Below, in pieces: positions 4,243 to 58,676 of a DNA stretch of 58,882 nucleotides. Positions within the stretch are counted from its first letter, which is position 1. Each line of letters opens with the position of its first letter. The position numbers and the translations under genes are program-made. The DNA is from a virus: IMG/VR virus record IMGVR_UViG_3300020463_001991, positions 1 through 58,882 of that record; one strand, 5' to 3'. The notes under the pieces were generated by a model. That model was not told the DNA's origin. It ran no database searches and worked only from the letters and a program-made list of their open reading frames with translations.

Positions 4243-4880
4243 GTAATGTAAGAATAGGTTTTAGTCCAACATTTACTGCTGGCATATATTTTGATACTGG
4301 CGTTATTATGAACACTTACAGTGTTGATTTGCAGATGATTACAAAGTCAATGAATACTATGGATCATAATATAGCACTAGAAAGATGCAAGTATATTATC
4401 TATGAACAATTTTGTGATTCTATCATCATCGGAGATGACGACAAAAAAATTGCTAAAAGATATCAAGACGTTGGTTTTCGCACAATAATTTTGCCAAATG
4501 AAGTGGCTGATCAATTGACAGGTTTAGCCTTATATAGTAAACTACAAGCAGTTACTGAAGATGTAATAGATATATTAGATATAAGTCTTAGAAGCACAAT
4601 GGGCGGCGGAATAAGTTATTTGCATCACGATGAGGAAACTGCTGGTCCATATGAAAAATCAGGATGGTGGAGTGATACTGGTCCAAATTGTAGCACACTG
4701 CCAAGTACAGGTAAGAAAATTGTCACACTTAATAATCCGACTTGGAAAAGTCTAGAGTTAGATTGGGACGATGGTGAAGAACCAGAAACAGTTATTGAAA
4801 TAAAACTTGAGAAGAAACAAGAAAAAATTGAGAATGCAGGCGAAAACGTAGTAGAATTTAAACCCAATGATAAAAAATAA
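4239..4880 (+). CDS. Conserved phage protein of unknown function
   Basis: This 213-residue protein overlaps the preceding gene by 4 nt (ATGA). The N-terminal 130 residues look like a mixed alpha/beta domain. The middle has an aromatic, Gly-rich segment containing HHDEE and SGWWSD. The last 50 residues are acidic and lysine-rich and probably disordered. It overlaps the next start by 14 nt. It sits among replication and nucleotide genes, but I see no motif that assigns a function. Confidence 0.65.
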   Translation: MSNVRIGFSPTFTAGIYFDTGVIMNTYSVDLQMITKSMNTMDHNIALERCKYIIYEQFCDSIIIGDDDKKIAKRYQDVGFRTIILPNEVADQLTGLALYSKLQAVTEDVIDILDISLRSTMGGGISYLHHDEETAGPYEKSGWWSDTGPNCSTLPSTGKKIVTLNNPTWKSLELDWDDGEEPETVIEIKLEKKQEKIENAGENVVEFKPNDKK

Positions 4881-7940: not shown

Positions 7941-9062
7941 ATGATTAACACACTTTACAAAATTTGGAACATTAAACACGCAGAGGGTGATGAATTCACC
8001 GGCTATGAAAGTGTGTACGACCAGCTGGATAGTTTTGATAAAGCACAATACGATGCTGATCCGCAAGGCACTATTGAAAAGGTATATGACATATATCGCA
8101 GTATTAATCTTGTTCCCATTGTTTACTTTACACATAAAGGCTTAGTTGAAGCAGTTAGTAAATTCAGCAAACTTAACTATAACAATGTTGACAATAGCAA
8201 AATTGGATTGGGCAACAACAGAGGACAAACCATTAACAGATTTTTGTTTCCAAACATGATGACTGCTGAACCAAAAGGCAGAGGATCAAACAGTTTGCAA
8301 GACAGATTTTTGGATGAACGTAAATTAAAACGTGCAATACGTATCTGTTTTGAATTTAGAACTGGTGAAAGATTGTTACGTCCAACACAATTGAGAACTG
8401 CATTAGAACTGGTTACAGGCGAAAACGTTACAAACTTCAAGGCACAAAATGCCAAAGCAATAGCAGAACATCTATGCCCTGTGTTATGGGGCAATGTATA
8501 CGATTACAGTTGCGGATACGGCGGAAGATTATTGGGTATAGGTTCAAGCAACTTCAAATACAATTATATAGGAGTTGAACCCAACACAGAAACAGTGCAA
8601 TACCTAAACTATCTCAACGATATTATAGATGAAGCAACAGGTGTTAGAGGATCTATTGTACAGAGTGTCAGTGAAGAATATCAACCAGAGGATATTGATT
8701 TAGCATTTTCAAGTCCTCCGTATTTTAATTTGGAGAAATATAGCAATGAAAACACACAATGCATGGTCCGTTACAAAACAGAGGACGAGTGGTTTGAAGG
8801 GTATGTTATACCGACTATGGAAAATATTTACAGAGGGCTCAATAGAGAAGGAATCTTCGCCACGAATATCGCCGACTATAAGTCTTACGACCGTAAAGAA
8901 CCCTACGAAGTCACAGAAAGATGGAAAGATGTCGCTAATGGAGTAGGCTTCAAACATGTTGAAACTATTAAAATGATGTTGAATACACGTCCAGGCGTGG
9001 GCAATGATCGTAAACAAGGAAGAGAAAAATGGGAGGGAGTCTATGTCTTCAGAAAAAACTAA
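7941..9062 (+). CDS. DNA methyltransferase, SPPY-type (N4-cytosine-like)
   Basis: The 373-residue protein has a Rossmann methyltransferase core in the C-terminal half: AdoMet loop YDYSCGYGGRLLG, acidic GVEPN after strand 2, and catalytic AFSSPPYFNLE. SPPY is characteristic of N4-cytosine amino-methyltransferases, with N6-adenine less likely. The N-terminal 160 residues are probably a target-recognition or phage-specific domain. No restriction endonuclease gene is adjacent, so self-protection or epigenetic marking of phage DNA is likely. The next gene starts inside its last codons. Confidence 0.8.
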   Translation: MINTLYKIWNIKHAEGDEFTGYESVYDQLDSFDKAQYDADPQGTIEKVYDIYRSINLVPIVYFTHKGLVEAVSKFSKLNYNNVDNSKIGLGNNRGQTINRFLFPNMMTAEPKGRGSNSLQDRFLDERKLKRAIRICFEFRTGERLLRPTQLRTALELVTGENVTNFKAQNAKAIAEHLCPVLWGNVYDYSCGYGGRLLGIGSSNFKYNYIGVEPNTETVQYLNYLNDIIDEATGVRGSIVQSVSEEYQPEDIDLAFSSPPYFNLEKYSNENTQCMVRYKTEDEWFEGYVIPTMENIYRGLNREGIFATNIADYKSYDRKEPYEVTERWKDVANGVGFKHVETIKMMLNTRPGVGNDRKQGREKWEGVYVFRKN

Positions 9063-9588
9063 ACCAACAGATTACATGCGAACGGTAATGGATTATCCTG
9101 AACCCGGTGTAAACTTCTATGACATTAATAGTTTGTTTGCACAACCTGCATGGAACCAAGTTGCCGCTGAATTATCAGTTGCGGTACAAACAGAATACAA
9201 TCGCACAGGTGATCTCAGTCACGTAGTTGGTATCGAAAGCAGAGGATTTGTTGTTGGTGCGGTACTGGCCAGTGTTATAGGTGTTCCTTTTATAATGGTA
9301 CGTAAAAAAGGTTCTAAGTATCCTGGTAGTCTATTAGAAGAAACTTATTCACTTGAATATGGTGAAGATACACTGGTAATACAAGAAGGTATACTTGGAT
9401 ACACAAACCGTGTATTAATTGCAGATGATCTGGTTGCCACTGGCGGAAGTGCATTAGCAACCAAAAGGCTTGTTGAACAAACAGGAGCAACAGTAGTTGG
9501 CTTTGCGAGTGTGTTGAACTTAGCATATCTAAACACTGATGACATGAAATCACAATCGTTGATAACTTCTGAGGAGATAACAAAATGA
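9043..9588 (+). CDS. apt: Adenine phosphoribosyltransferase
   Basis: A 181-residue type I phosphoribosyltransferase converting adenine plus PRPP to AMP. Signatures are GIESRGFVVGAVLA, an RKKGSKYPG flexible-loop segment and the PRPP loop VLIADDLVATGGSAL (about residues 124-138). I chose ATG 9043, preceded by GGGAGGGAG, over an upstream codon at 9004 lacking a comparable site; it overlaps the methyltransferase by 20 nt. With GMP reductase (46702) and another phosphoribosyltransferase (58080) it suggests purine salvage. Confidence 0.9.
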   Translation: MSSEKTKPTDYMRTVMDYPEPGVNFYDINSLFAQPAWNQVAAELSVAVQTEYNRTGDLSHVVGIESRGFVVGAVLASVIGVPFIMVRKKGSKYPGSLLEETYSLEYGEDTLVIQEGILGYTNRVLIADDLVATGGSALATKRLVEQTGATVVGFASVLNLAYLNTDDMKSQSLITSEEITK

Positions 9589-11763: not shown

Positions 11764-12573
11764 ATGACGCAACTAATAGACCCAAGCAAATTCACAGAGA
11801 CAGTTGGCCTTTTAAGGTCATTTTTTTTGGAAAAAGGATTTCTTGAAGTACACACACAAAACAGATTAAGCATACTAGCCGCATGCGAAGACCCGTTCAA
11901 TGTAGCAACATACAATTATGCAGGCCAAGTATGGCCACTACCGCAAACCGGCCAGATGTGGTTGGAACATGAATTACTAAGTCAGCCCTCAGCAAAGGGC
12001 TTTTTTTGTGTCTCCACATCCTACAGACAAGAGCCAAATGCAATACCAGGCAGACATGATATAATATTTCCAATGTTTGAATTTGAAATGCCAGGCAACA
12101 TAGATGATCTCAAAGCAATGGAACTTGAACTGGTAGACTACTTAGGCTTTGAAAAGCCACTTGAAAAAACTTATGCAGATTGGCAACACTGGTACGGAGT
12201 AGAAGGCGAACTAGAAGCAGAGCATGAAACACAAATGTTCAAAGACTTTGAAACCACAATGATAACAGACTTTCCAGAGTTCACATCACCTTTTTGGAAC
12301 ATGTCACGTAACACAGATGGTACTAGTAAAAAGATAGATGTAATACTAGGTGGTATGGAAACAATAGGTTCAGCAGAACGTAGTACAGACATTATCCAAA
12401 TGAGAGATACCTTTCACACTATCACAGATGGTGCATATAGTAACCTACTGTATGAATTGTTCAGTAAGGATCGTGTTGAAGCAGAACTAGAAGAATTTTT
12501 AAAGTTTGATTTCTTTCCAAGAGTAGGCGGCGGCATAGGTATGACACGTATGATTGCCGCACTAGACAAGTAG
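11764..12573 (+). CDS. Stand-alone class II aminoacyl-tRNA synthetase-like core (AsnRS/AsnA type)
   Basis: The 269-residue protein shows the class II aaRS catalytic core. A motif 1-like helix (LRSFFLEKGFLEVHT) is followed by substrate segment LPQTGQMWLEHELL, motif 2 CVSTSYRQE with the later MFEFEM strand, and motif 3 RVGGGIGMTRM with its Arg. GGGIG resembles asparagine synthetase A; the rest recalls the Asp/Asn/Lys synthetase group. There is no N-terminal OB-fold anticodon-binding domain, as length and sequence show. A tRNA with a GUU (Asn) anticodon follows after 6 nt, so charging that tRNA or making asparagine are the two main options. AAAGGAAAG precedes the start. Confidence 0.75.
   Translation: MTQLIDPSKFTETVGLLRSFFLEKGFLEVHTQNRLSILAACEDPFNVATYNYAGQVWPLPQTGQMWLEHELLSQPSAKGFFCVSTSYRQEPNAIPGRHDIIFPMFEFEMPGNIDDLKAMELELVDYLGFEKPLEKTYADWQHWYGVEGELEAEHETQMFKDFETTMITDFPEFTSPFWNMSRNTDGTSKKIDVILGGMETIGSAERSTDIIQMRDTFHTITDGAYSNLLYELFSKDRVEAELEEFLKFDFFPRVGGGIGMTRMIAALDK
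11984..12007 (+). terminator. Terminator-like hairpin inside the synthetase-like gene
   Basis: AGCCCT (11984-11989) pairs with AGGGCT (11996-12001) around CAGCAA, and the run of Ts continues to 12007. This has the form of an intrinsic terminator, yet lies within an intact reading frame. It may be coincidence or an attenuation point. Confidence 0.4.
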
Positions 12574-12579
12574 GATTAT

Positions 12580-12682
12580 TCTGGGGTGGTGAAATTGGTA
12601 GACACGTACGGCTGTTAACCGTATGGTTGAGTGTACTGCAATATATTTAACCGTGTAGGTTCGACTCCTACCCCCAGAGCCA
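12580..12682 (+). tRNA. Unusual tRNA with anticodon GUU (Asn) and long variable arm
   Basis: The acceptor stem TCTGGGG/CCCCAGA pairs perfectly (12580-12586 with 12672-12678), followed by G73 and an encoded CCA. D stem GTG/CAC, anticodon stem TACGG/CCGTA (anticodon GTT at 12614-12616) and T stem GTAGG/CCTAC with TTCGACT loop are all intact. The variable region is 31 nt (12624-12654) and can form a GGTTGA/TTTAACC stem. U1-A72, G73 and GUU match bacterial asparagine identity, while the D arm (GTGAAATTGGTAGACAC) and long variable arm look like tRNA-Leu. It follows the synthetase-like gene by 6 nt. Confidence 0.85.
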
Positions 12683-12697
12683 ACATATAAGTACTTC

Positions 12698-13561
12698 ATG
12701 CGTCCTATACTTCCATTTGTTGAAACCATGATAACCTATGCTTGTAATCTTAGTTGTACAGGTTGTACAAACTATAGTGATTACAATATGAAAGGCAGTG
12801 TACGTTGGGCACAAGGCAAGGAATGGCTTCAAGCATGGATAGAACGTATTAACATTTCAGACTTTGGAATAATGGGCGGTGAACCAACACTAAATCCAGA
12901 ATGCGAACAGTGGATCTATGGAGTACGTTCTCTATTGCCCAACAGTCAAATACGATTTACAACCAATGGTGTAAACTTTCATAAACGGCCAGAAGTATTT
13001 GACTGGTGTGTTGACGTTGGAAATACAGTTTTTAAATTTACACTACACGAAGACAAAACTTACGGCATGGATGCTATAAATTATGTTTTTAAAAAATTTA
13101 AGTGGTCACCAATAACCGAGTATGGTATTAATCGTTGGCTAGGTCCTAACAATACACGTTTTCAAATTAATTCTCCTTTACAATTTTTTAAAACTTATAC
13201 CGGAACGTTCGGCAATATAAAACCACACAATAATAAGGCAAAAGACGCATTTGACATGTGTATACAACAAACCTGTCCGTTGCTCTATGAAGGTAAAATT
13301 TATAAATGCAGTAGCATTGCACTGTTAAATAAAGTATTATCAGATTGGAGACAACCAGTTACTGATGATTGGAAGCCATACACTGACTATGAAGGAATAT
13401 CCGTAAACAGTTCAGACAAAACTATAAAACAGTTCATACAAAACTTTGGAAAAGCACATAAAATTTGTACAATGTGTCCAACAAAACAGGACACTGACAG
13501 TATTATCAATCATCGATCAAATGTGATATCCAAGAAGCAATGGATTAAACTTAATGCTTAA
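12698..13561 (+). CDS. Radical SAM protein with C-terminal cysteine cluster
   Basis: The 287-residue protein has the CxxxCxxC iron-sulfur motif at CNLSCTGC (residues 16-23), an AdoMet-binding GGEPTLNP and a later FTTNG strand. C-terminal Cys residues (MCIQQTCPLL, IYKCSS, CTMC) could bind an auxiliary cluster as in SPASM/twitch proteins, which often modify peptides. It starts 15 nt after the tRNA and overlaps the next radical SAM gene by 8 nt. A paralogue lies at 36586. The substrate is unknown. Confidence 0.85.
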   Translation: MRPILPFVETMITYACNLSCTGCTNYSDYNMKGSVRWAQGKEWLQAWIERINISDFGIMGGEPTLNPECEQWIYGVRSLLPNSQIRFTTNGVNFHKRPEVFDWCVDVGNTVFKFTLHEDKTYGMDAINYVFKKFKWSPITEYGINRWLGPNNTRFQINSPLQFFKTYTGTFGNIKPHNNKAKDAFDMCIQQTCPLLYEGKIYKCSSIALLNKVLSDWRQPVTDDWKPYTDYEGISVNSSDKTIKQFIQNFGKAHKICTMCPTKQDTDSIINHRSNVISKKQWIKLNA

Positions 13562-15452
13562 CTTATACCTAGTGCAAACTGTTGACAAGTATGGCCCTAA
13601 TAGTTTTTTGCCATTGGCAATAAGTTATCAATGGATGTATGCACAGGATGATGAACAGGTAAAACACAATTACAATGTTGCCGATGTACTAATTGAGAAA
13701 ACAAATCCAAAAGAATATGTAGACGCAATGCATGTTGAACCACACATAGTTGCCATGAGTAACTATGTGTGGAATTGGGAATATAATAAGGAACTGGCCA
13801 AAGAAATAAAAAAAGTATATCCAAACTGTGATATCGTTGTAGGCGGGCCTAATGTCGATAAACGCAATCCCAATTTCTTTGTAGACTTTCCTATGTTTGA
13901 TATAGCAGTGTTAGGCGAAGGTGAACCAGCTTTTAGACAAATCCTGAAACAAAGGCTAATGAATAGAAATTACAACGGTATACCAAGTGTGTTTCCAAAA
14001 GGCGGAGATATATGCAATTTACCAACACGTTTCCGAGAGCTTGAAACCATACCATCACCGATACTGAATGGATTTTATGATATGATAATCGATAAGGTCG
14101 AATCTAAACACGGTAAACAGATGTGGCAAGTAACCTACGAAACACTACGAGGGTGTCCGTATCAATGTGCATTCTGCGACATAGGTGATTTGTATTGGAA
14201 TAAAATTGCTAAATTTGACATGCCACGCATTGAAGCAGAAATAGATTGGATGGCACGTAGAGAAATTGAATATGTTGGTGTATGCGATAGCAATTGGGGA
14301 ATGTTACAACGCGATTTAGATATCACTGCGTATGTAATTAAAAAGAAGCAACAAACTGGCTATCCAAAGTTTTGGGACGTCACCTGGGCCAAAACAAACA
14401 GCGAAAACATTTATCAAATTGCAAAGATGGATAAAGACGCAGACACCAGACTGTTTAAAGGCGTGACTTTTGCTATGCAAAGTCTAAATCCAGCAACACA
14501 GAAAGCAAGTAAACGTGTAAATTTAAAAAGTAATGAAGCACTTACGTACATGAACAAGTACCAAGAAGAGAACATACCTACATACAGTGAACTAATATGG
14601 CCTATGCCAGATGAAACCTATGACACTTTAAAGGATGGTATTCAACAACTTGTTGACCTTGGACAAAAAAGTTTTTTAATGGTGCATCCATTGGTTCTTA
14701 CATTCAACGCAACAATGGGTCAAAAACATTACATAGAAGAATACGGTTTAAAATGGAAAGAAGTGCCACTGGACACATACTACTTGAGTGTTGATGATTT
14801 AGAAAACTATATTGTAGAAAAAACAATGGGTGTTTATGCTACCAATACTGCTGATGAAGTGCTAACCATGCGTGGTAATTTGTTCTCATACTTGTTTATA
14901 ACCATGTACTATTATGGATGGGCACACTATCTTATGGAATACATGCAAAACAAACACGATATAAAACATGTAGACTTTATCGAAAGTATGCTTAATTATT
15001 TCTATACTAAAAACTGTCTAATAGGAAGAGAAATACGTGCCACTGAAAAACACATGCACGATGTGTTTTACGGAGATAGTTTCTGGGGCAGACAAGTTTT
15101 AGAAAACGATATCTATTGGGAATACAAAGGTGCCACTAGTGTAGTCTTTCATCAAAACAGACAGAAGCTAAAGTATGAGCTTATAGATTTTGTATATGAA
15201 AAATACGAGATTGATGTATCAGATGTTGTTGAATTTAATATACACATGTGTAAAGATCCAAATATAAAATATCCTTATAATATAAAAGTTACAAAAGATA
15301 CAAGCACGCATTGCCTTAATACTGATAGCACACACTTACAAATTGATCATTGGGATAAGGAAGCACTTGATGAACGCAAGTTTTATCATGTTGGCTACCA
15401 CTGGCAAAGAAAAAATCACTACTGGAAATGCACTCCAACTACAGTAGATTAG
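13554..15452 (+). CDS. B12-binding-domain radical SAM protein
   Basis: This 632-residue protein has an N-terminal cobalamin-binding-like Rossmann domain (EPHIVAMSNY, IVVGGPNVDK, VLGEGEPAFRQIL). The radical SAM core follows with RGCPYQCAFCD supplying CxxxCxxC and later conserved strands (GVTFAMQSLNP, YSELIWPMPDET). A C-terminal region of about 200 residues is phage-specific. B12 radical SAM enzymes methylate or rearrange unactivated carbons. The typical DxHxxG motif is not evident, so cobalamin binding is uncertain. It overlaps the preceding radical SAM gene by 8 nt and converges with the oxygenase on the other strand. Confidence 0.85.
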   Translation: MLNLYLVQTVDKYGPNSFLPLAISYQWMYAQDDEQVKHNYNVADVLIEKTNPKEYVDAMHVEPHIVAMSNYVWNWEYNKELAKEIKKVYPNCDIVVGGPNVDKRNPNFFVDFPMFDIAVLGEGEPAFRQILKQRLMNRNYNGIPSVFPKGGDICNLPTRFRELETIPSPILNGFYDMIIDKVESKHGKQMWQVTYETLRGCPYQCAFCDIGDLYWNKIAKFDMPRIEAEIDWMARREIEYVGVCDSNWGMLQRDLDITAYVIKKKQQTGYPKFWDVTWAKTNSENIYQIAKMDKDADTRLFKGVTFAMQSLNPATQKASKRVNLKSNEALTYMNKYQEENIPTYSELIWPMPDETYDTLKDGIQQLVDLGQKSFLMVHPLVLTFNATMGQKHYIEEYGLKWKEVPLDTYYLSVDDLENYIVEKTMGVYATNTADEVLTMRGNLFSYLFITMYYYGWAHYLMEYMQNKHDIKHVDFIESMLNYFYTKNCLIGREIRATEKHMHDVFYGDSFWGRQVLENDIYWEYKGATSVVFHQNRQKLKYELIDFVYEKYEIDVSDVVEFNIHMCKDPNIKYPYNIKVTKDTSTHCLNTDSTHLQIDHWDKEALDERKFYHVGYHWQRKNHYWKCTPTTVD

Positions 15453-57232: not shown

Positions 57233-58083
57233 CATTCCAACTAGAAGCCACTAAAAATATATCTGTTTGTATGGCCACAAGAGGTAGACCAGAGCTTGCC
57301 TTTGACAGTATTAAAAGCATGATAGATCTAGCACATGACGTTGATGAAATTGAATTTTGTGTTGCAATTGACAATGACGATACTGCAAGTCATGAATATT
57401 TTACTAAAACTGTTACTCCCTGGTTTGAAAAAGAAGAACTTGATTTGTTAGTAATGAGCTTTGATAGATTAGGCTATGCAAAACTAAACGAGTACATCAG
57501 TCATCTTGCCTCAAATTGTAGCGGTGCATGGATTATTACATGGAACGATGATGCACGTATGGAAAGTCAAGATTGGGATAAAGAAATTGCAAGTTATACA
57601 GGGCAGTTTAAACTACTAGCATTCAAAGACAATCATAACAAACATCCATACAGTATTTTTCCTATATTGCCAAGAGAATGGATGGTTCTCTTTGGTATTA
57701 TTAGTCCTCAACAGGCAATAGATGCATGGGTATCGCAAGTTTGCTATTTAACTGATTGTTTTCAACGTCTGGAATCTACTGTTTTGCATGATAGACATGA
57801 CTTAACTGGAAATAACAACGATACTACATACCAAGAACGTGAGTTTTTAGAAGGGGATCCTAACAGAGCAGGAGATGCCTTTCATCCTGAGATGCAGAAA
57901 CTGAAAGAACAATTTGCGGCCAAAGTTGGTTGGTATTTAAAACGTATAGGACAGGATACAGGTTATTGGGACAAAGTGTTACGTAAAGAAGTTGAACCAT
58001 ATTCTTTAATGTATGCCAATGATCCAAATAAAAATCTAAGTACATATACATGGGTTAAAACAGCAGAAGGTTATAAGCAATGA
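57229..58083 (+). CDS. GT-A glycosyltransferase-like protein, paralogue of 35206
   Basis: The 284-residue protein starts [19 protein letters not shown], a GT2-like nucleotide-binding strand and helix, with CVAIDNDDT and the metal motif [10 protein letters not shown]. The segments GNNND and the terminal helical region match the protein at 35206. It overlaps clpP by 4 nt and the phosphoribosyltransferase by 4 nt. Acceptor unknown. Confidence 0.72.
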
Positions 58084-58676
58084 AGAAAATATTTGTTACA
58101 TGGCACGACGTTCAAAGGCAAACACAAGAAATACTACGCCAGATGCAAAAGGAATCGTGGAAGCCAGACTACATTGTTGGCATTACACGTGGCGGCTTAA
58201 ATCCAAGTAACTTGTTAAGTCAATATTTAGATATTACAATGTACACACTTGATGTAAGATTACGTGATGGCAAGCATGTGCCTTGCGAAAGTAACAAAAA
58301 ACTTGCAGAGATTGCATTTGGAATGAACGATGGTAAATCAACTGGTGCACGTTGGGACGTTGGACAACGTAAGAAAATATTAATTGTAGATGATATTAAC
58401 GATTCGGGTGCAACGATAAATTGGATCAAGCAAGATTGGGAACGTACCATTAAAAAAGCAGTTGGAGACACAACTGATATTGGTTATGTATGGGAAACTA
58501 TTTGGAACAAAACTACGAAGTTTGCAGTTTTATTTGATAACACTGCAAGTGAAGCAGAGATTGGTGTTGACTATAGTGCAGAAGAAATTAACAAAGTAGA
58601 CGACCCAAGTTGGATTGTTTTTCCGTGGGAAGAATGGTGGAGCAGATGGGATCCTAACATAGAAATAATGAGGTAG
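58080..58676 (+). CDS. Phosphoribosyltransferase (type I, purine-like)
   Basis: The 198-residue protein has the PRPP loop ILIVDDINDSGATI and the PDYIVGITRGGLNPS N-terminal strand/loop, both typical of type I phosphoribosyltransferases. It resembles xanthine/hypoxanthine enzymes more than adenine ones, but the hood region that selects the base (DWERTIKKAVG onward) is atypical. The Trp-rich C-terminus (FPWEEWWSRWD) is unusual. It would complement the apt gene at 9043. Confidence 0.8.
   Translation: MKKIFVTWHDVQRQTQEILRQMQKESWKPDYIVGITRGGLNPSNLLSQYLDITMYTLDVRLRDGKHVPCESNKKLAEIAFGMNDGKSTGARWDVGQRKKILIVDDINDSGATINWIKQDWERTIKKAVGDTTDIGYVWETIWNKTTKFAVLFDNTASEAEIGVDYSAEEINKVDDPSWIVFPWEEWWSRWDPNIEIMR

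Follow-up and report, generated by a model that had tools for sequence, protein, structure and literature searches.

What does a viral synthetase-like enzyme without an anticodon-binding domain do beside a tRNA that joins asparagine features to a leucine-like body? This question is raised by a marine virus, IMG/VR record IMGVR_UViG_3300020463_001991, analysed here as one stretch of 58,882 nucleotides (the window), in which a gene for a 269-residue protein (11764–12573, plus strand) precedes such a tRNA on the same strand (12580–12679). An earlier note on this DNA had proposed either a private synthetase–tRNA system that reads or bypasses host rules, or an AsnA-type ligase that uses the tRNA as a cofactor or handle. 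Our analysis of the protein, the tRNA and their relatives points to a putative dihydroorotate-forming enzyme.

The enzyme is a synthetase catalytic core nearest to AsnRS

The only Pfam domain of the protein is tRNA-synt_2 (D, K and N), with an E-value of 1.2e-15, and its AlphaFold2 model (pLDDT 94.5) contains the class II core and nothing more. An anticodon-binding domain, which in AsnRS is an N-terminal OB-fold, is absent from the 269 residues according to both Pfam and the model, bearing out the earlier description of a stand-alone class II synthetase-like protein without this domain. The closest folds in the PDB are those of AsnRS, AspRS and LysRS, headed by AsnRS 1x54 (with Asn-AMP) at a TM-score of 0.79. 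The protein is a catalytic-core-only relative of the class IIb synthetases with a fold nearest to AsnRS, and its own relatives in phages and cells are 46–97% identical to it. A profile comparison with AsnRS, AsnA and LysRS, which the earlier note had suggested, reached no curated cut-off: the enzyme falls below those of AsnRS, AspRS, LysRS and AsnA, scoring 26.9 bits against the AsnRS model TIGR00457 (cut-off 342.6) and 20.5 bits against the NCBIfam asparagine synthetase A model PRK06462 (cut-off 389, E 2e-4).

The amide ligands of AsnRS are one Glu and one Arg (PMC7387524). Profile alignment of the enzyme family to AsnRS 2xgt shows the class II motifs and an Asn-type side-chain pocket, and the residues invariant across 78 sequences, R88, E90 (motif 2), E106, R206 and R262 (motif 3), could be mapped onto that structure. 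As judged from the alignment, E106 and R206 sit at the Glu and Arg columns that hold the Asn amide, which we take to be E228/R368 of P. horikoshii AsnRS. L67 presumably occupies the column of the Asp-binding Lys in AspRS.

An asparagine synthetase of the AsnA/AS-AR type, making Asn from Asp, NH3 and ATP, would share the core-only class IIb architecture seen in archaeal asparagine synthetase A, to which the enzyme shows recognisable similarity (E 1.3e-4 for its profile against structure 3p8t, alongside the PRK06462 match); the tRNA would then serve Asn decoding or be a passenger. We regard this as distinctly unlikely, since the enzyme gains 20.5 of the 389 bits needed, AsnRS and not AS-AR is the top match of the family by sequence and by fold, and the pyrimidine operons and the absence of CarAB, PyrB and PyrC described below would go unexplained. 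Membership in AsnA itself is not borne out, although the earlier idea of an AsnA-like ligase with the tRNA as its cofactor or handle comes near to the reading that we favour.

The tRNA has asparagine identity in a class II body

The tRNA begins 6 nt after the stop codon of the enzyme gene, and its positions 1–73 occupy 12580–12679. The 5′ strand of the acceptor stem (12580–12586) starts with U1, whose partner A72 lies at 12678, and the discriminator G73 is followed by an encoded CCA (12679–12682). The anticodon is GTT (12614–12616), with A at position 37 (12617). The variable region spans 31 nt (12624–12654) and forms an 11-bp hairpin with a CUGCAA loop (fold −10.6 kcal/mol, z −4.1). These features, together with a Leu-like D arm, are as the earlier note had read them. 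Support from tRNA scanners, which it had called for, came from the Rfam tRNA model RF00005, matching 12580–12679 with 53.7 bits (gathering threshold 29, E 9e-9), but not from ARAGORN, which made no call at 12580. Likeness to tRNA-Leu is limited to the D arm and the long variable arm, as the window tRNA has G73 and GUU in place of A73 and a Leu anticodon.

Covariation supports the fold across the family. All helices are 100% paired in 44 aligned relatives, with 234 double-change cells compared to 59.7 in shuffled alignments and no more than 32 in slid controls. G73 and the U1–A72 pair are present in 111/111 distinct copies, in which acceptor pairs 2–6 vary freely and covary. The variable region ranges from 12 to 38 nt, and the cyanophage copies have no encoded CCA. 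In many of the long variable arms, including that of the window, a loop of CUGCAA type, in which GCAA is conserved, is combined with a UAUUUA 3′ strand, possibly a protein-binding motif.

Like class I tRNAs in general, tRNA-Asn normally has a variable loop of 4–5 nt. The family thus departs from tRNA-Asn in its body while retaining GUU, G73 and U1–A72, of which GUU and G73 make up the bacterial Asn identity set (PMC9976931) and U1–A72 is read by GatCAB in tRNA-Asn (PMC4206432). It departs from tRNA-Asn also at position 37, a purine in decoding tRNAs, where the 111 distinct copies have T (94), A (12) or C (5). A pyrimidine is therefore found there in 99 of 111 copies and in none of 110 further tRNAs from these loci, which always have a purine (Fisher p 8e-50, with kinship ignored). 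The invariant Asn identity combined with pyrimidine 37 makes most phage copies look, by their sequence, like Asn carriers built for charging rather than decoders. The window copy has A37 within the loop CUGUUAA, a normal Asn decoder loop, and for this copy alone decoding is possible.

Enzyme and tRNA form a conserved unit in phages

A scan of IMG/VR returned at least ~600 stretches with relatives of the enzyme. Among 169 marine viral loci encoding it, 154 have an adjacent class II tRNA downstream (within 450 nt, median 8 nt), and three more end too close to the enzyme gene for the presence of a tRNA to be judged. The anticodon is GUU in all 154 adjacent tRNAs, with no filter applied. Enzyme and tRNA are a real, conserved unit in phages, so that the same pair is found in related phages, as the earlier note had asked. 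Among the matches listed, the tRNA is the one neighbour shared by most of the 80 closest viral loci, which ruled out a pylRS-like operon with two downstream radical SAM genes. The window does encode two such genes after the tRNA (12698–13561 and 13554–15452), but their position next to the pair is not conserved. The second is similar to B12-dependent C-methyltransferases of the KedN5 type (E 1.7e-65), although it gains 221 of 700 bits.

In a tree of 98 proteins, the tRNA-bearing rows fall within one marine-phage clade (support 99/85), in which tRNA-less rows are scattered together with one cellular row (L095). This pattern fits a single gain of the tRNA followed by several losses. In four phage records (G051–G054) the tRNA was not found anywhere in the record, a DNA search of phage records with the tRNA alone as query gave no match, and the huge-phage protein L085 used as a scan query retrieved no relative. 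Divergent members (46–49% identity) are encoded in huge phages of 735 and 484 kb (LR756501.1, 88649–89473, and LR756508.1, 193461–194243), without a class II tRNA beside the gene. In another phage-like locus, L093, the class II tRNA (4316–4403) overlaps the final 18 nt of the enzyme coding sequence, which stops at 4333.

Cyanophages P-SSM2, P-SSM5 and P-SSM7 encode the same enzyme, annotated as 'tRNA ligase'. In P-SSM2 (AY939844.2) the true tRNA-Asn lies at 162083–162168; the annotated one, at 164094–164179, is ~2 kb off and not a tRNA, and this misplacement concealed that the true one lies next to the 'tRNA ligase' gene.

Phage tRNAs with altered loops that escape nucleases exist, and the odd anticodon loop could make this tRNA a variant that evades a host tRNA-cleaving defence, or a decoy, with cassette travel alone accounting for its position next to the enzyme. 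Clade-wide linkage to one enzyme and the class II body would remain unexplained, making such a role highly improbable.

Some cellular relatives lie among pyrimidine genes

A scan of GTDB genomes found 105 relatives, the best 80 of which belong mostly to Patescibacteria, DPANN archaea, Dependentiae, Midichloriaceae and Gammaproteobacteria, with the addition of Pasteurella atlantica. A pattern search for the odd tRNA in 50 cellular genomes matched three, all marine MAGs, where the matches are most likely phage contigs. Since the tRNA has been lost in several phages and is missing from the cellular genomes searched, the chemistry cannot depend on it, and the tRNA-less relatives in both groups show that the core function of the enzyme does not need this particular tRNA. 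The earlier note had held that relatives without the tRNA would count against its proposal; these exist among cells and a few phages, although most viral loci keep the tRNA.

Across ~80 loci compared, the core has pyrE or pyrF as a neighbour in 18 and pyrD in 13. Operons with pyrD, pyrE or pyrF thus occur in a minority of cellular loci, in many combinations: core-pyrF-pyrE-pyrD′-PRPP synthetase-transketolase in the Midichloriaceae-type loci L115, L116 and L126, core-pyrE-pyrF in L152, L158 and L160, core-pyrEF-pyrD in L141 and L143, core-pyrD-pyrE in L157, and pyrD / core-pyrF-PRTase in P. atlantica. The Midichloriaceae-type arrangement gathers genes for UMP synthesis into a compact operon that includes a PRPP synthetase and a transketolase of its own; its DHODH is divergent and short (~250 residues) and has relatives in the phage-like loci L088 and L093.

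In those two phage-like loci the DHODH-like gene adjoins the core (the Pfam match in L093 is weak). The core has phosphoribosyltransferase (PRTase) genes close by in phage-like L023, L070 and L071, and pyrE-like genes in the cyanophage-type loci L207, L190, L185 and L243. An orotate PRTase is annotated in another part of the P-SSM7 genome, and P-SSM2 has purH a few kb upstream. This context agrees with a role in nucleotide supply, although in most phages the few kb around the core contain no further pyrimidine gene. The window itself encodes two PRTases (9004–9588 and 58080–58676). One is an adenine PRTase, which scores 159 bits and passes one cut-off, and the other bears a weak resemblance to xanthine/hypoxanthine PRTases; together they represent purine salvage in this phage.

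Genomes with the core mostly lack the first pyrimidine enzymes

We surveyed 47 core-bearing genomes for pyrimidine enzymes with curated cut-offs. OMP decarboxylase was over its cut-off in 33 and DHODH in 22, compared to ATCase in four, the CPSase large subunit in two and multi-type dihydroorotase in three, with the dimer type in about one or two more. ATCase, CPSase, DHODH and OMP decarboxylase were all over cut-off in 14/14 control genomes. The core occurs together with PyrF in 24 genomes in which none of CPSase, ATCase and dihydroorotase was found. In the bacterial order that includes L158, core and ATCase are mutually exclusive: none of five genomes encoding the core has ATCase, compared to 25 of the 31 in which the core is missing (Fisher p 0.0012).

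The core thus stands where CarAB, PyrB and PyrC are missing, with exceptions. Core and ATCase occur together in four genomes, and PyrF is under its cut-off in 14 of the 47, mostly small CPR, several of which also lack DHODH over cut-off. Such genomes may reflect a different function in those lineages, or may be incomplete. In P. atlantica, whose record is titled a complete chromosome, the sole ATCase-like match was rejected as an ornithine carbamoyltransferase beside a carbamate kinase.

PyrD, PyrE and PyrF depend on dihydroorotate. The pyrimidine neighbourhoods, together with the missing CarAB, PyrB and PyrC, point to nucleotide synthesis as the field of the family, and its assignment to the pyrimidine pathway is well supported by comparative genomics.

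These results bear on whether the core might simply charge the phage tRNA with Asn for translation, independently of the host and reading the variable arm instead of the anticodon. The AsnRS-like pocket and fold, the tight linkage in 154 loci with an invariant GUU, and the decoder loop of the window tRNA speak for this. We nevertheless consider it unlikely, because pyrimidine 37 marks 99/111 copies and none of the 110 controls, the pyrimidine-gene linkage and ATCase exclusion of the cellular homologues would be left unexplained, and in P. atlantica a tRNA-less homologue coexists with a full AsnRS. Replacement of AsnRS by the core was ruled out, as a full AsnRS is also encoded in 14 of the 47 core genomes, others having neither over the cut-off. 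Of the private synthetase–tRNA system proposed earlier, the conserved pair has stood, and the code-changing role has not, given pyrimidine 37, the cellular homologues without the tRNA and its losses in phages.

A proposed route from asparagine to dihydroorotate

On balance, we favour a pathway in which the AsnRS-like core family supplies dihydroorotate in place of CarAB, PyrB and PyrC, and in which phages use it with a dedicated Asn-accepting tRNA to obtain pyrimidines. For the substrate, the chemistry and the role of the tRNA, we infer the following scheme. The net reaction would be L-Asn + CO2/HCO3− + ATP → L-dihydroorotate + AMP + PPi, and its mass balance would close exactly, Asn plus CO2 minus H2O being dihydroorotate. 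Aminoacyl adenylates and CO2 give N-carboxyanhydrides. The core would begin with an ordinary Asn adenylation to Asn-AMP, the α-amino group of which could capture CO2 to yield the N-carboxyanhydride; attack of the side-chain amide on the C2 carbonyl of the anhydride would then close the six-membered ring and free the α-carboxylate. In marine phages, the enzyme would make pyrimidines during infection.

The same pathway might be served by other chemistry, with the core activating another carboxylate (for example carbamoyl-aspartate, in an ATP-driven ring closure), an unrecognised carbamoyl donor, and the tRNA as a translation-side extra. The operons and absent enzymes speak for this equally. It would leave the origin of carbamoyl-aspartate to be explained, as most core genomes are without CPSase and ATCase, and the pocket is Asn-like, not Asp-like, so that we hold it to be improbable.

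In the favoured scheme starting from Asn, the dedicated phage tRNA would most likely be an Asn carrier or a direct Asn-tRNA substrate and not a decoder. Its long variable arm may be the private handle by which the enzyme recognises it; from Asn-tRNA the enzyme could form Asn-AMP by reversal of the usual transfer step, and the tRNA would thereby tap the Asn that hosts hold as Asn-tRNA. Taken to its full extent, this would amount to aminoacyl-tRNA-dependent pyrimidine synthesis, in which the host, through AsnRS or through ND-AspRS and GatCAB, charges a non-decoding phage tRNA, the enzyme converts Asn-tRNA via Asn-AMP and CO2 to dihydroorotate, and the private tRNA acts as the cofactor of a carbamoyl-phosphate-free pathway. 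We advance this version tentatively, as a possibility less likely than not. Alternatively, free Asn is possibly all the substrate that the enzyme needs, the tRNA having a different role.

Comparison with known systems

The enzyme family appears to be unnamed, and the proposed route appears to be missing from textbooks. In the literature searched, which covered few subscription papers or preprints, so that an earlier description may exist, neither the pair nor the pathway was found, apart from the 'tRNA ligase' label of T4-GC 194. If true, the proposal would provide a second, carbamoyl-phosphate-free start to pyrimidine synthesis, with a converted tRNA synthetase as its enzyme and a spread over Patescibacteria, DPANN archaea, endosymbionts and abundant ocean phages, and it would explain genomes that have PyrD, PyrE and PyrF but not CarAB, PyrB and PyrC. 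The 'tRNA ligase' genes of P-SSM2 and P-SSM7 would need renaming, and the list of phage metabolic genes would gain one that serves DNA synthesis. In the private tRNA there would be a rare case of a tRNA working outside translation, and tRNA-linked nucleotide synthesis would become directly testable.

PylRS with tRNA-Pyl, and other private pairs, likewise place a core-like synthetase gene beside an unusual tRNA; here, in contrast, GUU is a sense anticodon, position 37 is usually a pyrimidine, and cellular relatives lack a private tRNA. Cases of tRNA-dependent biosynthesis, such as Asn-tRNA formation by GatCAB or glutamyl-tRNA reductase, and non-decoding tRNAs offer a parallel for an aminoacyl-tRNA as a possible metabolite carrier, in keeping with the U1–A72, G73 and GUU identity. 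To our knowledge, none of these has pyrimidines as its outcome or combines Asn identity with a class II body.

With AsnRS, a class IIb enzyme, the core shares the catalytic fold (1x54, TM 0.79), motifs 2 and 3 and the amide-binding Glu and Arg positions, but it lacks the anticodon-binding domain, is 18–19% identical to AsnRS, is linked to pyrimidine genes and coexists with true AsnRS. AsnA, archaeal AS-AR, HisZ, EpmA and other synthetase paralogues are also cores without an anticodon domain that were recruited to metabolism; compared to these, the core family has a different predicted product and only weak similarity. Its predicted product, dihydroorotate, and its operon partners PyrD, PyrE and PyrF are those of CarAB-PyrB-PyrC, from which it differs in having an unrelated fold and in a predicted economy of one enzyme for three, with no carbamoyl phosphate.
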